Origin: Peribacillus kribbensis DSM 17871
GTDB lineage: Bacteria; Bacillota; Bacilli; Bacillales; DSM-1321
Reading direction: 5' to 3'
Length of the DNA stretch: 64,000 nt
Assembly: GCF_000430765.1 (NCBI RefSeq)
Contig: NZ_KE387237.1
Coordinates: 110,459-174,458 of the forward strand
Position numbers and translations under genes: made by a program. Of the stretch, positions 47,224 through 53,418 are shown in pieces (positions within the stretch are counted from its first letter, which is position 1; each line of letters begins with the position of its first letter). Under the pieces are notes generated by a model. It saw only the letters and a program-made list of their open reading frames with translations. It was not told where the DNA came from and made no database searches.

Positions 47224-47505
47224 CATACTAATCATATTTATAAAAAGTAATGATAAGGACATGGGTATTCTGCTTCCATTTTCAGAGAGGGAAGGCCGGC
47301 GCTGAAATCTTCCTATTGTGAAAAGAATGCTTACCACCTTTGAACTTCAGCTGTGAAATTGACAGTAATAGCTGACGGAGAACCGCCGTTAAAAGGTCAC
47401 GAGTGTCATTCCTCTATGAAGGCGGAATGAAACAAGGGTGGAACCGCGGGTTTTTAAAATGAAATAAAGCTCGTCCCTGTATGCATATACAGGGGCGGGC
47501 TTTTT
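47224..47505 (+). promoter_or_regulatory. T-box riboswitch of thrS (Thr, ACC specifier)
   Basis: The T-box core AAGGGTGGAACCGCGG is at 47434-47449. The probable specifier ACC (threonine) is at 47333-47335. The terminator is a 14-bp stem 47469-47501 followed by TTTTT. Uncharged tRNA-Thr would favour the antiterminator. Confidence 0.9.
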
Positions 47506-47517
47506 GTATTTTTATTT

Positions 47518-47888
47518 GGCTCTTTTAAAAGACTGTTGCTTTCTAGGAGAATTTCTTTATAAACACAGGTTGATTGGGGTGGAAGGTGCGAGACTCCTGA
47601 TCCAGCTCCAAGGCATTAGACCCTCGAGTCATAAGCCAATCCGTCTATGGGAAGAAAACCACTCCCCACAGCCGGCTCGTCTTATGCTTGTCGGATCTCT
47701 GCCTGCCAAGAGATTCTTCACTGTTTATATTAATATAGATGAACATTGAGCTCTTAAGATTGTTATATTTAGCAGGCACCGCTTTCCGCATTTCTAAGCG
47801 GGCTCACCGCCCGCCCCGCGGAAAGCGAGCATCCTGGAGCGGAAATCAACCTCTTTGTTCCAAAGCCGCAAAGATTGCAAAAACATCC
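47518..47888 (+). repeat. MITE-like palindromic element R1 inside the thrS leader
   Basis: Starts GGCTCTTTTAAAAGACTG, contains GGTTGATTGGGGTGGAAGG and GACTCCTG, and ends with GGAGCGGAAATCAACC, TTTGTTCCAAAGCCGCAAAG and CATCC. Outer and inner blocks match R2 (55115-55226) and R3 (60448-60584). A second repeat is nested at about 47600-47705. It separates the T-box terminator from the thrS start. Confidence 0.75.
47600..47705 (+). repeat. Second interspersed repeat nested in R1
   Basis: Includes CCAGCTCCAAGGCATTAGAC, CCTCGAGTCATAAGCC and TCTTATGCTTGTCGG. Bases 47618-47635 are repeated in inverse at the very start of the window. Non-coding. Confidence 0.55.
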
Positions 47889-47956
47889 TTTTATTAAGAT
47901 GCTATATCTGTTTTGCTAAATGACCCAGCACCTCAAAACAACAAGGAGTGAAAGAA

Positions 47957-49888
47957 ATGTCAGAAGTGATGAAAGTAACTTTCCCTGATGGAGCAGTAAA
48001 GGAGTTCCCAAAAGGAACTAGTACAGAGGACATCGCTTTTTCAATCAGCCCAGGGTTGAAAAAGAAGGCAATCGCCGGAAAGGTCGATGGGGAGCTTTAT
48101 GATTTAAGACGCCCGATCGAGAAAGACGGTGCGATTGAAATTGTGACCCAGGAAAGCAAGGATGCATTGGAAATCATGCGCCATAGTACAGCCCACCTGC
48201 TTGCTCAGGCCGTAAAGCGCCTGTATAAAAATGTGAAGCTGGGAGTGGGGCCTGTCATTGAAGGCGGTTTTTACTATGACATCGATTCAGAGCAGTCATT
48301 GACACCTGAAGATCTCCCGCTGATCGAGAAAGAAATGAAAAAAATCATCAATGAGAACCTGGAAATCATCCGTGAAGAAGTGAGCCGTGATGAAGCGGTT
48401 CAAATGTTCAAGGAAATTGCTGATGAGTATAAGCTTGAACTGATTGAAGCCATCCCTGCTGACGAGACGGTTACTGTTTACCGCCAGGGTGAATTCTTTG
48501 ACTTGTGCCGAGGGGTGCATGTTCCTTCTACGGGTAAAATTAAGGAATTCAAGCTGCTAAGCATTGCCGGAGCTTATTGGAGAGGCAACAGCGATAATAA
48601 GATGCTTCAGCGTATATATGGAACAGCCTTCTTTAAGAAGGAAGACCTTGCTGAACACTTAAGACTGCTGGAAGAAGCAAAAGAGCGCGATCACCGCAAG
48701 CTCGGCAAAGAGCTCAGCCTGTTTACCAACTCCCAGAAAGTCGGCCAGGGGCTTCCGCTTTGGCTGCCTAAGGGAGCGACAATCCGCCGGATCGTTGAGC
48801 GCTATATTGTAGATAAAGAAGTGAGCCTTGGCTATGACCATGTGTACACTCCGATTATGGGAAGCGTCGATCTGTATAAAACATCCGGCCACTGGGACCA
48901 CTACCGTGAAGATATGTTCCCTGTGATGGATATGGATAACGAGCAGCTTGTTCTTCGTCCGATGAACTGCCCGCATCATATGATGGTGTATAAGAATTCC
49001 ATTCACAGCTACCGTGAGCTGCCAATCCGCATCGCAGAGCTTGGAACCATGCACCGTTACGAAATGTCCGGAGCTCTATCAGGACTTCAAAGGGTCCGTG
49101 GAATGACTCTGAATGATGCCCATATTTTCGTCCGTCCGGATCAAATCAAAGAGGAATTCAAGCGGGTAGTCAATCTTGTATTGGCCGTTTATAAAGACTT
49201 TGATATCAATGATTATTCCTTCCGCCTATCGTACCGTGATCCAGAGGATACGGAGAAGTACTACGATGATGATGATATGTGGGAAAAAGCGCAATCCATG
49301 CTGAAGGAAGCCATGGATGAGCTTGGACTCGATTATTTTGAGGCAGAAGGCGAAGCAGCTTTCTATGGCCCTAAGCTTGATGTGCAGGTACGTACAGCCC
49401 TTGGAAAAGATGAGACTCTTTCCACTGTCCAGCTTGATTTCCTTCTTCCGGAACGCTTCGATCTGACATATGTCGGGGAAGACGGCAAACAGCACCGTCC
49501 AGTTGTTATCCACCGCGGAGTGGTTTCTACGATGGAACGTTTCGTCGCATTCCTGATTGAAGAGTATAAAGGTGCATTCCCTACATGGCTTGCTCCTGTA
49601 CAGGTACAGGTCATCCCGGTTTCTCCGGAAGTGCATCTTGATTATGCGAAAGAGGTCCAGGAAAAGCTGCGGGCGCAGGGGCTTCGTGTAGAGCTTGACC
49701 ACCGCGACGAAAAGATCGGCTATAAGATCCGTGAAGCGCAGATGCAGAAGATTCCTTATATGCTTGTTGTAGGGGATAATGAAGCCGCAGATGGAGCTGT
49801 AAACGTCAGGAAGTATGGCGAACAAAAGTCAGAAACCATGAGCTATGACCAGTTTGAATCCATGATTGTAAATCAAGTCAGAAAATAA
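47957..49888 (+). CDS. thrS: Threonyl-tRNA synthetase (full length)
   Basis: 643 residues, same as B. subtilis ThrS. TGS domain (about 1-63), editing domain ([11 protein letters not shown] about 75-85 and [10 protein letters not shown] near 184), class II catalytic core with zinc ligands C338, H389 and H519, and anticodon-binding domain (about 545-643). AAGGAG 10 bases upstream of ATG 47957. Threonine-tRNA control by the T-box upstream. Confidence 0.97.
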
Positions 49889-49904
49889 AATTCATAACTT
49901 AGAA

Positions 49905-50217
49905 GCAATGAAGAGGACAAGATCCATTCCTTCCTTTCTTTCCAGAGAACAGGGCCAAGAGCTGAGAGCCCTGAAGAAACAGGAATGGTTTACCGCCTGC
50001 CTGAGCTGCCGCGGGGAACTTAAAGTATCCGCGGCCGGTTAAAATCCGTTATCTGACCAAGAAGGCTTCTGATCAGGAGTCAGCCCTTATTACTGTATGT
50101 ATCGCTTTTCACCATAACTGCAGGATGTCCGGGATGACTTTTAGAGAGACAGCCTTGAACCAGGGTGGAACCACGGCGCACACGTCCCTTTCGGAGGGAT
50201 GGAGTGCGCTTTTTTTA
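49905..50217 (+). promoter_or_regulatory. First of two tandem Thr T-boxes before the second ThrRS
   Basis: T-box core CAGGGTGGAACCACGG at 50161-50176, probable specifier ACC at 49992-49994, terminator GCGCAC-stem 50177-50209 with TTTTTTT. It begins only ~17 bases after thrS and no promoter or terminator is visible between them. Confidence 0.88.
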
Positions 50218-50255
50218 TTACCTGGAAGATTTTGAAACTGAATATCTGTAAATAG

Positions 50256-50517
50256 CGATGAAGAGGACAATAATTATTCCTGCCCTTCTTGACAGAGAAC
50301 AAGGCCGCGGCTGAGAGCCTTGAAGACAGGGAGATTAATTTACCGCCTGCAGAGCTGCCATGGTGAACGATACTAGCTGTGGCCGGGTACACCGTTACAT
50401 GTGCCAGAGGATATGGACTCTGGGGTCAGGCTGGCAGCCTTATCCCGGGGTAAAATTGAATTAGGGTGGAACCACGGCCGCGCTCGTCCCTTGCTTAGGG
50501 ATGAGCGCGGCCTTTTT
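50256..50517 (+). promoter_or_regulatory. Second tandem Thr T-box
   Basis: Closely similar to the first: GATGAAGAGGACAA start, specifier ACC at 50342-50344, core TTAGGGTGGAACCACGG at 50461-50477, terminator GGCCGCGCTCGTCCC stem 50477-50512 with TTTTT. The two leaders share the segment TTTACCGCCTGC, indicating duplication. Confidence 0.88.
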
Positions 50518-50524
50518 ATATTTC

Positions 50525-50566
50525 GGGGGACTGACCCTTTTTCCCCGGGAAAAGGGGTCAATTCCC
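50525..50566. repeat. Palindrome between the second T-box and the ribosome site
   Basis: GGGGGACTGACCC and GGGGTCAATTCCC are imperfect reverse complements around TTTTTCCCCGGGAAAA. It forms a long hairpin ending about 8 bases before AAAGGAGG. Similar palindromes are scattered in Bacillus genomes (recollection). Confidence 0.55.
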
Positions 50567-50587
50567 ACAAAAAAAGGAGGAATTTGT

Positions 50588-51793
50588 ATGAAATCAAAAC
50601 ATGTAAAGGAAACTGAAGTGCCGAATCACCGAAAGATTGGACAGGAATTGGAATTATTCACAACTATGGAGGAGGCGCCGGGAATGCCATTTTTCCTTCC
50701 GAAGGGGATGGCCATCAGAAATGAGCTGGAAAGCTTTTGGAAGAAGCAGCATCAAATGGCGGGCTACATGGAAATCAAGACTCCTGTCATGATGAAGCAG
50801 TCTCTATGGGAGCAGTCAGGCCATTGGGATCATTACCATGAAAATATGTATTTTTCCCGTGTCGATGAACAAAATTACGCCATTAAGCCGATGAGCTGTC
50901 CGGGAGCTGTTCTGGTTTTTAACAGCAAACGAAGAAGCTACCGTGAGCTCCCGCTCCGCTATGCCGAGCTCGGACTGGTCCACCGTCATGAATTGTCGGG
51001 ATCCTTAAATGGCTTGTTAAGAGTCAGAGCTTTCACTCAGGATGATGCCCATCTCTTTGTCCGGGAAGATCAGGTGGATAGCGAGCTTAGCGCTATCCTA
51101 GATTTGATTCACTCTTTTTATTCCAAATTCGGTTTCAGCTATAAAGTGGAGCTTTCCACTCGGCCGGAAGATTATATGGGGTCCTCTGAGCAGTGGGATA
51201 AAGCGGAGGCATCCCTTGAAAATGTTCTTAAAAATAAAGGGGCGTCCTACCAGATCAATCCTGGGGATGGGGCATTTTACGGTCCGAAGATTGATTTCCA
51301 TATCATGGATTCCCTTGGGAGGAGCTGGCAGTGCGGCACTGTCCAGCTCGATTTCCAAATGCCCGAAAATTTCAATTGCACGTATATAAACGAAGATAAT
51401 AAAGAATCCCGTCCGGTCATGATTCATCGGGCGATATACGGCTCCATTGAACGTTTTATGGCTATCTTGATCGAGCATTATGCAGGAAACTTCCCGTTTT
51501 GGCTTGCTCCTGTCCAGGTGAAATTGATCCCCATTTCTGAAAAGCAGGCAGTTTATGCAGAGGAAGCCAAAAAAAGGCTTGAGCAAGAAGGAATCCGTGT
51601 GGAGGTGGATGCCAGAAGTGAAAAGCTCGGATTAAAAGTAAGGGAAGCCGAGCTTCAGAAGGCGGCCTTCATGGCGGTCATCGGAGACAGAGAAATAGAA
51701 CAGTCTTCCCTCGCCCTCCGGAGGCACCAGGAAAAAGAACAAAACGTACTGGGGTTGGATGAGGCTGTAGAATTCTTACTAAGCTTTATCTAA
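50588..51793 (+). CDS. Second threonyl-tRNA synthetase lacking TGS and editing domains
   Basis: 401 residues, against ~640 for ThrRS. It begins with NHRKIGQELELF, which corresponds to the residue ~230 region of ThrS, so both N-terminal domains are missing. The catalytic core is intact: zinc ligands C104 (KPMSCPG), H155 (QDDAHLF) and H280 (MIHRAIYGSIERF); anticodon-binding domain about 300-401. It should charge tRNA-Thr but cannot clear Ser-tRNA-Thr itself. AAGGAGG lies 7 bases before ATG 50588; no start with a site gives a longer protein. Position parallels thrZ of B. subtilis in T-box control, but thrZ is full length. Confidence 0.9.
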   Translation: MKSKHVKETEVPNHRKIGQELELFTTMEEAPGMPFFLPKGMAIRNELESFWKKQHQMAGYMEIKTPVMMKQSLWEQSGHWDHYHENMYFSRVDEQNYAIKPMSCPGAVLVFNSKRRSYRELPLRYAELGLVHRHELSGSLNGLLRVRAFTQDDAHLFVREDQVDSELSAILDLIHSFYSKFGFSYKVELSTRPEDYMGSSEQWDKAEASLENVLKNKGASYQINPGDGAFYGPKIDFHIMDSLGRSWQCGTVQLDFQMPENFNCTYINEDNKESRPVMIHRAIYGSIERFMAILIEHYAGNFPFWLAPVQVKLIPISEKQAVYAEEAKKRLEQEGIRVEVDARSEKLGLKVREAELQKAAFMAVIGDREIEQSSLALRRHQEKEQNVLGLDEAVEFLLSFI

Positions 51794-51796
51794 TCC

Positions 51797-51880
51797 AGCA
51801 GGTGTGACTCCCGAAGCCTTGCGGAGGACCGCCCGCCCGCCAAAATGGGTGGTATCCTGGGGGAGACATCTAACAGCATG
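51797..51880. repeat. Degenerate copy of the palindromic element family
   Basis: Blocks GTGTGACTCCCGAAG, CCGCCCGCCCGCC and GTATCCTGGGGGAGACATCT resemble the family blocks GACTCCTGCGGG, CCGCCCGC and GCATCCTGGAGCGGAAATC. Too decayed to set exact ends. Confidence 0.4.
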
Positions 51881-51998
51881 GTTTCGGGCACCATCTTAAA
51901 CGGAGTTTAAAAGATAAATTCACAGTTTTTTTGAAAAGCCCTTGCATTCGAAATGAGTATCTGATAAGATAATTTTTGTTGTGAAAATAATTTATCGG

Positions 51999-52027
51999 TT
52001 GACAGCAATTGTTATCCATGATATATT
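51999..52027 (+). promoter_or_regulatory. infC operon promoter
   Basis: Perfect -35 TTGACA, 17-base spacer, TATATT. Confidence 0.85.
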
Positions 52028-52033
52028 TTCTAA

Positions 52034-52180
52034 GGTGAATTGAATACGTGTTTGAGAGAAAGAAGAGGCACCCGCTTCTCACCTGGCTGACGCAATTGCA
52101 GTTTGCAGGTTCATGATGATTATTTGACTTTGTCTACTTAATTAATCAGTGTGGGTGTGCCTGAACACCCACACTTTTTT
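52034..52180 (+). promoter_or_regulatory. Ribosomal protein L20 leader
   Basis: Leader ending in a 10-bp terminator stem GTGTGGGTGT / ACACCCACAC with TTTTTT (52149-52180). In Bacilli the leader of infC-rpmI-rplT binds L20 and attenuates transcription; location and terminator fit, although I did not model the L20-binding fold. Confidence 0.7.
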
Positions 52181-52285
52181 ATTTGCTTTTTAGTATGCAT
52201 CTGTAATCATGGTGAATGGGAAAGGCGTTAGTTGATTCTGGCTCACGCGCTGTATTCGCCTAATAAACCTTGGAGGTGGCTAATT

Positions 52286-52801
52286 ATTAGCAAAGACATG
52301 ATGGTAAACGAGGGTATCCGTTCCCGCGAGCTTCGTCTTATTGACCAAAATGGAGAGCAATTAGGCATCAAAACTAAATTTGAAGCTCTAGATATTGCTG
52401 CACGTGTTAATCTTGACGTTGTATTGGTTGCTCCAAATGCAAAGCCTCCAGTAGCCCGGATCATGGACTACGGAAAATACCGTTTTGAGCAGCAAAAGAA
52501 AGATAAAGAAGCACGCAAAAACCAAAAGATCATTAATCTTAAAGAGGTTCGCTTAAGCCCTACCATTGAGGAGCATGACTTCAATACGAAGCTTAAAAAT
52601 GCCCGCAAGTTCCTTGAAAAAGGGGACAAGGTGAAGGCTTCCATCCGATTCAAAGGACGTGCGATCACTCATAAAGAAATTGGTCAACGGGTTCTGGACC
52701 GTTTTTCTGAAGCATGCAAAGACATCTCTACGATTGAAACACATCCGAAAATGGATGGCCGGAGCATGTTCATTCTATTAGCACCTAAAAACGAAAAGTA
52801 A
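52286..52801 (+). CDS. infC: Translation initiation factor IF-3 (ATT start)
   Basis: 171 residues. Read with the rare ATT start at 52286, which has GGAGGT 8 bases upstream and gives [11 protein letters not shown] at the N-terminus, as in Geobacillus and Bacillus. N-domain ([12 protein letters not shown]), [15 protein letters not shown] linker and C-domain ([25 protein letters not shown]). ATT is used for self-limiting control because IF-3 discriminates against it. An ORF from 52232 would add an unrelated extension. Confidence 0.93.
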
Positions 52802-52822
52802 TGTAATGAGGAGGAAACCCTT

Positions 52823-53014
52823 ATGCCAAAAATGAAAACTCACCGCGGATCTGCAAAACGTTTTAAGAAAACTGGTTCTGGTAAACTTAAACGTTCACAT
52901 GCTTACACAAGCCACTTATTCGCAAACAAATCAACTAAAGCAAAGCGCAAGCTTCGCAAAGCTTCTCTAGTAAGCAAAGGCGATTTCAAACGCATTCGCC
53001 ACATGATCGGATAA
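52823..53014 (+). CDS. rpmI: Ribosomal protein L35
   Basis: 63 residues, very basic. [21 protein letters not shown] is the L35 signature. AGGAGG 8 bases upstream. Middle gene of infC-rpmI-rplT. Confidence 0.96.
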
Positions 53015-53058
53015 TAATAAACATAATCGCGTGATCGATTTATATAGGAGGGAAACAC

Positions 53059-53418
53059 ATGCCACGTGTAAAAGGCGGTACTGTTACTCGTAAGCGTCGT
53101 AAAAAAGTTCTTAAATTAGCAAAAGGTTACTATGGTGCGAAGCACATTCTATTCAAAGTTGCTAACCAGCAGGTAATGAAATCTCTACAATATGCTTTCC
53201 GTGATCGTCGCCAGAAAAAACGCGACTTCCGTAAGCTTTGGATCACTCGTATCAACGCAGCAGCACGCATCAACGGTCTTTCTTACAGCCGTTTAATGCA
53301 TGGCTTAAAGCTTGCTGAAATCGATGTGAACCGCAAAATGCTTGCTGAACTTGCAGTGTCTGATGCAAATGCATTCGCTGAGTTCGCAAACGCTGCTAAA
53401 AAACATCTTGAAAAATAA
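53059..53418 (+). CDS. rplT: Ribosomal protein L20
   Basis: 119 residues. [26 protein letters not shown] at the start (long basic arm) and [18 protein letters not shown] signature. Also the likely repressor of its own operon through the leader. GGAGGG upstream. Confidence 0.97.

Follow-up and report, generated by a model that had tools for sequence, protein, structure and literature searches.

Peribacillus kribbensis DSM 17871 carries, in a 64,000-nucleotide stretch of contig NZ_KE387237.1 (positions 110,459 to 174,458; hereafter the window, whose own numbering is used throughout), two adjacent genes for threonyl-transfer RNA (tRNA) synthetase (ThrRS): a full-length thrS and, behind two T-box leaders in tandem, a short gene whose 401-residue product begins at the catalytic core and lacks the whole N-terminal half with its TGS and editing domains. 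We propose that the short protein is probably an active but editing-less second ThrRS, a backup induced by poor charging of tRNA(Thr) that would leave the proofreading of Ser-tRNA(Thr) to ThrS. The missing proofreading half, the paired T-boxes and the occurrence of the short gene only beside a full-length copy suggest an emergency enzyme whose accuracy is supplied by the main ThrRS. ThrRS is a textbook case for why proofreading exists, and removal of its N-terminal part is a classic laboratory construct; the same kind of deletion occurs here as a stable natural clade that appears to be wired to a tRNA(Thr)-charging alarm, and many Bacillus-like bacteria keep such a second ThrRS, without the proofreading half, behind paired T-boxes. 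An initial annotation of the stretch had already put forward a starvation-induced synthetase edited in trans by ThrS; the retained active site, the ACC specifiers of the T-boxes and the presence of a partner in all 57 carriers now favor that proposal indirectly, and it is from these that we infer induction and trans-editing.

A ThrRS catalytic core without the proofreading half

Pfam searches found only the tRNA-synt_2b and HGTP_anticodon domains in the short protein, and the TGS and tRNA_SAD domains that form the N-terminal part of the canonical bacterial ThrRS were found in the neighboring ThrS and not in it, in keeping with the initial description of a protein that starts where the catalytic domain begins. 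Against TIGR00418 the short protein scores 568.4 bits over profile positions 166-561 of 565, above the curated cut-off of 383.65, and it is 43% identical to the ThrS of the same cell. Its residues C104, H155 and H280, rightly named at the outset as conserved zinc ligands, align with the ligands C334, H385 and H511 of Escherichia coli ThrRS (E. coli residue numbers, here and below, were assigned by offset from the alignment). An AlphaFold model of the protein (mean predicted local distance difference test score 88.4) superposes on the ThrRS cores of E. coli and Salmonella with template modeling (TM) scores of 0.91-0.93. Among these is 1evk, an E. coli structure titled as a truncated form of ThrRS, which has a near-identical start residue, the same fold, a TM score of 0.93 and 48% sequence identity; 1evk is a laboratory construct, however, whereas the short enzyme is natural and retained. 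Structures of the yeast mitochondrial enzyme MST1 are also among the close structural matches (TM 0.88-0.90), and 3a31, the Aeropyrum ThrRS-1, is a weaker one (TM 0.82).

The zinc ligands are unchanged in all 57 distinct catalytic-only proteins that we found, as are the positions of E. coli R363, R375, D383, Y462, K465, Q484 and R520, which we take to be catalytic, and of E600 and R609, presumably anticodon contacts. Mutated residues for binding ATP or threonine, which the initial annotation had named as grounds for abandoning its proposal, are thus not seen at the catalytic positions listed. Among 88 alignment columns that are nearly invariant (97%) in 128 full-length proteins, just three are relaxed in the catalytic-only clade, namely D243, R245 and N333; the first two sit at the junction to the lost half, and their relaxation is expected if both residues served it. 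Conversely, K300, S369, C495 and A337 (E. coli numbers) are fixed or nearly fixed within the clade. The ratio of nonsynonymous to synonymous substitution rates (dN/dS) is 0.017-0.124 in 13 close pairs of catalytic-only genes, and close relatives of the short gene are under purifying selection. As a separate observation, ThrS at all 41 loci read differs near the active site from the ThrZ-like branch, represented by 57 catalytic-only and 87 full-length proteins, at E. coli positions 379 (F to M), 381 (Q to L) and 479 (Q to T).

Distribution and origin of the catalytic-only clade

The 57 proteins, the window's included, come from the class Bacilli and were counted after copies of the same protein had been dropped. 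We call a protein catalytic-only if at most 77 open residues lie ahead of the matched core, Pfam having been run on the window's protein alone; eight partial matches covering fewer than 330 query residues (including both pieces from genome G032 and the match in G014; G and L numbers are our handles for genomes and loci) and matches truncated at contig edges were left out before the counts. A scan of named genomes gave, among its best 80 loci, 13 at 67-77% identity, all catalytic-only, followed after a clear gap by full-length ThrRS from 59% downward. Among 397 genomes sampled from the order, 42 matches reached E 1e-175 or better, 41 of them catalytic-only (the window's own genome included) and one full-length (G078). 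Two further genomes of the window's genus carry the short gene, and a sample of 398 genomes of the class added five catalytic-only carriers together with three full-length proteins at 61-62% identity. Across 398 genomes of the phylum searched at E 1e-168 there was no catalytic-only member besides the window's own; elsewhere there were 25 matches, in 24 genomes, each in a frame of at least 635 residues. A distant DNA search for E. coli thrS gave no match. The nearest full-length proteins, which are ThrZ-like, are 57-62% identical to the short protein.

A hidden N-terminal half upstream, or a frameshift concealing one, was considered and rejected: the upstream DNA consists of T-box RNA and the end of thrS, and 57 distinct proteins share the truncation. 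Sequencing error, raised early on as a possible explanation, can be set aside with it, since the layout is repeated in 56 distinct proteins other than the window's.

The tree of relatives that the initial annotation had called for places the catalytic-only proteins in one clade. In a quick tree (57 catalytic-only, 28 full-length ThrZ-like and 10 ThrS rows) this clade has a support of 100 in the Shimodaira-Hasegawa-like approximate likelihood ratio test (SH-aLRT), and in a more careful tree (32 of the 57, the same 28 ThrZ-like proteins and four ThrS) it has bootstrap 100 and SH-aLRT 99 and appears in 100% of 200 bootstrap trees. In both trees the clade falls within the branch of full-length ThrZ-like proteins and away from ThrS, Bacillus subtilis ThrZ itself not being placed in them. 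The full-length protein of G078, which retains the editing motifs RHSAAH and DLCRGPH and has two T-boxes at its gene, adjoins the clade in quick trees (support 94 and 93), a position made unsure by its long branch. Since one clade is nested among full-length ThrZ-like enzymes, the most parsimonious history is a single loss of the N-terminal TGS and editing half, within the Bacilli, from an enzyme of that kind.

In 30 genomes for which both proteins were compared, distances between short enzymes track those between ThrS cores (Mantel r 0.82, with none of 2000 permutations as high), and on this ground descent of the short gene looks largely vertical. The short enzymes have diverged about twice as much (mean distance 0.258 vs 0.136), and the two proteins have the same nearest neighbor in only 13 of the 30 genomes; losses or some transfer are likely. 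A full-length-type ThrZ-like gene in G014 (L109, C2:254729-258595), in which the match ends at query residue 292 and the open frame is 532 residues long, is possibly frameshifted or decaying.

Tandem T-boxes and second ThrRS copies

Both T-boxes of the window have, in order, an ACC specifier, the GGGTGGAACCACG core and a terminator hairpin. At 78.7 and 73.6 bits they score below 93, the gathering threshold of Rfam, and do not appear in listings made at that cut-off; many of their counterparts in relatives score above it. The two had been described as near-duplicates, starting at 49905; their number and their ACC specifiers stand, but the resemblance is confined to a 53-nt stretch at the start (81% identical), beyond which they diverge more, and 49905 lies 6 nt inside the first match, which begins at 49899.

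The T-box core motif is found upstream of all 57 catalytic-only genes, twice in 47, three times in six and once in four, one of the last with only 322 nt available; these are motif counts that tolerate a single mismatch and cover 1400 nt of upstream DNA (about 800 nt at some full-length loci). Rfam T-boxes are present at all 32 catalytic-only loci scanned, with two or more at 31. A pattern search for threonine-type specifiers gave ACC in 108 of 116 T-boxes (in one of them behind an ACA match) and nothing in eight, the pattern admitting ACN codons only, so that it separates ACC from the other threonine codons and not threonine from other amino acids. Two pattern searches for a tRNA(Thr) gene whose acceptor end could be paired with the T-boxes found none, one matching tRNA(Pro)-like genes and the other nothing.

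Comparison with full-length genes of known genome content (without six full-length loci whose upstream DNA was too short) suggests a simple rule. At least two T-boxes precede 22 of 23 full-length ThrZ-like second copies (18 in the window's family, G078, L039, L040 and L054; the exception is L036) and 53 of the 57 catalytic-only genes, compared with none of eight ThrZ-like genes that are the sole ThrRS gene found (L024, L028, L033, L037, L042, L046, L050 and L197) and none of 41 ThrS loci (36 distinct cores), each of which has one. Tandem threonine T-boxes therefore seem to mark a second ThrRS copy. Among the synthetases of Bacillota, only ThrRS genes are reported to have tandem T-boxes, 87% with two and 13% with three (PMC12452182). 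The second-copy rule may explain that published restriction; the words editing, paralog and truncated were not found in the main text of that paper (PMC12452182).

T-box 1 starts 11 nt past the thrS stop, and a promoter consensus scan showed no plus-strand promoter-like site in 47769-51999, although the scan performed at chance level (7 sites vs 7.1 expected). For these reasons transcription may run on from thrS, which would place three threonine T-boxes in series ahead of the short gene.

A full-length partner in every carrier

Another ThrRS, with its N-terminal half, accompanies the catalytic-only enzyme in all 57 carriers (the window's own genome, 42 of 42 and 14 of 14), and in none is the catalytic-only enzyme the only ThrRS. 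In 10 of 33 genomes, by comparison, no ThrRS other than a full-length ThrZ-like enzyme was found (10 of 14 in one set, 0 of 18 in the window's family and 0 of 1 for G078); in all 18 window-family genomes and in G078 such an enzyme co-exists with a ThrS. No third ThrRS was detected at E 1e-60 in the 56 carriers searched (42 and 14), and short and full-length ThrZ-like genes were thus not seen together.

The editing motifs are intact at 41 of 41 ThrS loci (36 distinct cores), which cover 30 of the 57 carriers, that is, all 30 whose ThrS was read. The co-existing, apparently editing-competent ThrRS that goes with a trans-edited enzyme of the Anabaena T2 type is therefore present here as far as partner genes and motifs can tell. 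More widely, both editing motifs are found in 75 of 87 full-length ThrZ-like proteins.

A stand-alone editing partner in the window's own genome was sought with PF07973 and rejected. The only matches above the cut-off were ThrS, an 881-residue frame and a 395-residue frame, which from their length and the look of their sequence we read as alanyl-tRNA synthetase and an AlaX-like protein, with a fourth match below the cut-off; the search did not extend to editing domains of the archaeal (DTD-like) type.

In one complete genome, that of Rossellomorea sp. AcN35-11, the ThrS gene (L198, 925-2857) is broken into two overlapping frames, 534 and 114 residues long, perhaps by sequencing error.

Proposed function and alternative explanations

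When charging of tRNA(Thr) falls, the uncharged tRNA would bind both ACC T-boxes, and transcription would then pass two terminators in a row, which should make the response tight and steep. Tandem terminating riboswitches have been described to give steeper, more digital responses (PMC9481103). The short enzyme would charge tRNA(Thr) through its zinc-dependent catalytic site and its anticodon-binding domain and, having no proofreading domain, would release some Ser-tRNA(Thr). Full-length ThrS would clear this product, either by rebinding free mischarged tRNA or by acting within a heterodimer of ThrS and the short ThrRS. Trans-editing of this kind can be supposed by analogy with the T1 and T2 enzymes of Anabaena. 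The loss of the TGS and editing half from a ThrZ-like ancestor, presumably once in the Bacilli, would have been tolerable because ThrS stays.

Several points weigh against this proposal. Charging, induction, serine mischarging and contact with ThrS are steps that we infer, and an editing-free enzyme induced at threonine scarcity is paradoxical, because the risk of misacylation is highest just then. Co-occurrence with ThrS is weak evidence when taken alone, ThrS being an expected housekeeping gene. The contrast between catalytic-only enzymes, never found alone, and ThrZ-like enzymes that are sometimes the sole ThrRS is suggestive and not a calibrated test, since the genomes are related and were partly picked by similarity, and completeness was not told for seven of the 10 'sole' genomes. 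In three of the 57 carriers (G552, G562 and G581) the partner is only 61-62% identical to the ThrS of the window and is unclassified, and in G798 the partner frame is broken near its C-terminus, with the remainder in an overlapping frame, possibly through sequencing error. Saturation of synonymous change means that no dN/dS can be computed for the protein of the window itself, and the end branch of that protein is long (0.45-0.47, compared with about 0.16 for its sisters); relaxed constraint on the short gene in this strain is possible. Finally, a relative of the short gene from the same family (L191, G032 C20:1200-6200), not among the 57, is broken into two overlapping frames in an assembly with 7% contamination.

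One alternative is that the short enzyme rejects serine by itself, in the active site or by pre-transfer editing, so that ThrS is not needed. Yeast mitochondrial MST1, which has no editing domain, discriminates against serine in this way, and its structures are among the close matches to the model of the short protein. K300, S369, C495 and A337, which vary little or not at all within the clade, could tune selectivity. On the other hand, the substrate-binding positions listed above are the same as in full-length ThrZ-like enzymes, the short enzyme is the sole ThrRS in none of the 57 carriers, and the active site of Anabaena T2 did not offset its lost editing (PMC4787780). We consider self-sufficient accuracy unlikely.

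The coincidence of induction and error might instead be the point. Serine placed on tRNA(Thr) when threonine is scarce would let threonine codons go on being read, and the induction logic, which responds to uncharged tRNA(Thr), does coincide with a high ratio of serine to threonine; although nothing of the editing domain is left, purifying selection acts in close relatives, and 41 of the 397 genomes sampled from the order have the gene. Taken further, Ser-tRNA(Thr) that ThrS cleared only in part under threonine starvation would allow threonine codons to be read as serine as a survival measure, a regulated loosening of the code to which we give little credence; the error rate would then be set by how much ThrS the cell has relative to the short ThrRS, perhaps by way of mixed dimers. 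A ThrS with intact editing motifs, as found in the carriers examined, would however counter mischarging, and no independent sign was seen that an exchange of serine for threonine brings a benefit, which leaves mistranslation gated by starvation quite improbable. The pair offers a clean natural system for testing whether the proofreading of one copy of a synthetase can serve another, and whether accuracy is relaxed in cells that run short of an amino acid.

Tolerance of a ThrRS inhibitor, the other function first suggested for the gene, would make it an isozyme resistant to borrelidin- or obafluorin-like antibiotics. Second ThrRS copies do act as immunity genes, ObaO being an example (PMC10619133). 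The short enzyme shares Met489 with ObaO, and given the differences from ThrS at positions 379, 381 and 479 a cell's two ThrRS may not be equally sensitive to a drug. In the obafluorin-resistant ObaO the residue matching Gly463 is Ser, and borrelidin, too, inhibits Ser or Ala mutants at this position far less (PMC11252418); Gly463 is nevertheless kept in all 57 catalytic-only proteins, and L489M alone gave no obafluorin resistance (PMC11252418). No neighbor family occurs in at least four of the 13 named loci compared (frames of at least 90 residues), and there is therefore no shared biosynthetic cluster at those loci. This makes a role in drug tolerance very improbable, and the suggestion has lost ground.

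That the gene is decaying on its way out, or encodes a ThrRS-like protein with a non-translational role, is the least probable explanation by our estimate, scarcely credible given that dN/dS is low in 13 close pairs, that the positions checked, catalytic ones and two that contact the anticodon, are fixed in 57 of 57 and that the T-boxes are kept, even though the broken copy in G032, the long end branch of the window's protein and a divergence about twice that of the ThrS core would fit it.

Relation to known ThrRS systems

B. subtilis ThrZ is a full-length enzyme whose gene has three T-boxes. The short enzyme belongs to the same ThrRS branch as Bacillus ThrZ and shares with it the tandem ACC T-boxes and the position of a second copy beside ThrS, but it lacks the whole TGS and editing half that ThrZ has and falls in a separate, single clade; multiple (two or three) T-boxes at thrZ have been described (PMC2494555). 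The closest parallel worked out in detail is Anabaena T2, a second, conditionally expressed ThrRS with impaired proofreading that exists beside an accurate housekeeping ThrRS. T2 mischarges serine, and T1 edits the resulting Ser-tRNA(Thr) in trans and forms heterodimers with T2 (PMC4787780); specificities of 436 for T2 and 314 for T1 indicate that the T2 active site offers no compensation (PMC4787780). T2 is, however, a full-length protein with an insertion in its editing domain that is induced by low zinc through Zur (PMC4787780), whereas in the short enzyme the domain is deleted and control is apparently by threonine T-boxes. Split archaeal ThrRS likewise has no editing domain and needs editing in trans (PMC7373986); its editor is a stand-alone ThrRS-ed, whereas here the editor is likely to be a complete second ThrRS. 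Split archaeal ThrRS and the degenerate editing domains of Mycoplasma are both already known (PMC7373986). ObaO resembles the short enzyme in being a second ThrRS with Met at 489 and differs in having Ser at 463, where the short enzyme has Gly.

A literature search by titles and the beginnings of abstracts, within papers outside subscription, returned no paper on a catalytic-only bacterial ThrRS clade. ThrZ with multiple T-boxes, split archaeal ThrRS and MST1 were known before; what appears to be new is a natural catalytic-only ThrRS clade in bacteria. MST1, an editing-less catalytic core like the short enzyme, works in mitochondria; it is not known as a second copy that is induced by stress and shares its compartment with a full-length enzyme.

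Organization of the locus

The features of the locus are collected in Table 1. An AGGAGG motif at 50575-50580 lies 7 nt 5' of the ATG of the short open reading frame.

Table 1. Positions of the ThrRS genes and associated RNA elements in the window
Feature	Position	Strand	Details
T-box leader of thrS	47241..47481	+	Rfam RF00230, 104.5 bits, E 5.3e-22; specifier ACC 47333-47335, read from alignment
Terminator-like hairpin of thrS T-box leader	47466-47503	+	
thrS, full-length ThrRS, 646 aa	47948..49888	+	Pfam TGS, tRNA_SAD editing and catalytic domains; editing motifs RHSTAHL and DLCRGVH; TIGR00418 800.7 bits
T-box 1 of catalytic-only gene	49899..50192	+	RF00230, 78.7 bits, E 2e-16; specifier ACC 49992-49994; core GGGTGGAACCACG 50163-50175
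Terminator hairpin and T run, T-box 1	50175..50217	+	fold of 50147-50221: -29.4 kcal/mol, z -3.9, 0 of 200 shuffles as low
T-box 2 of catalytic-only gene	50249..50494	+	RF00230, 73.6 bits, E 4e-15; specifier ACC 50342-50344; core GGGTGGAACCACG 50464-50476
Terminator hairpin and T run, T-box 2	50476..50517	+	16-pair stem 50476-50512, then T run; fold of 50447-50522: -38.5 kcal/mol, z -5.5, below all 200 shuffles
Catalytic-only ThrRS, 401 aa	50588..51793	+	class II core and C-terminal anticodon-binding domain; zinc ligands C104, H155, H280; no TGS or editing domain
L20 leader	52054-52186		downstream of catalytic-only ThrRS gene

Inspection of the neighbors, also proposed at the start, showed adjacency of the short gene to thrS only in the window's genus (G000, G005 and G006). 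In that genus the short gene stands between thrS and the L20 leader with its infC-, rpmI- and rplT-like frames (49888-53418 in the window); we read the frames beyond the leader as infC, rpmI and rplT by the look of their sequence and not by family search. It lies there within the gene order thrS-infC-rpmI-rplT, which is reported to be an operon in Clostridium (PMC12452182).

Two further stretches of the locus may be mentioned. Between the terminator of the thrS T-box and the start of thrS (47482-47947) there are some 370-390 nt of extra DNA, missing from the two congeners compared (L145 and L008); this extra DNA holds a GC-rich stretch resembling an inverted repeat and an open reading frame of 81 residues. 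Just 3' of the short gene, at 51810-51890, lies another GC-rich stretch that by eye resembles the one before thrS, and the two are possibly copies of a dispersed intergenic repeat.

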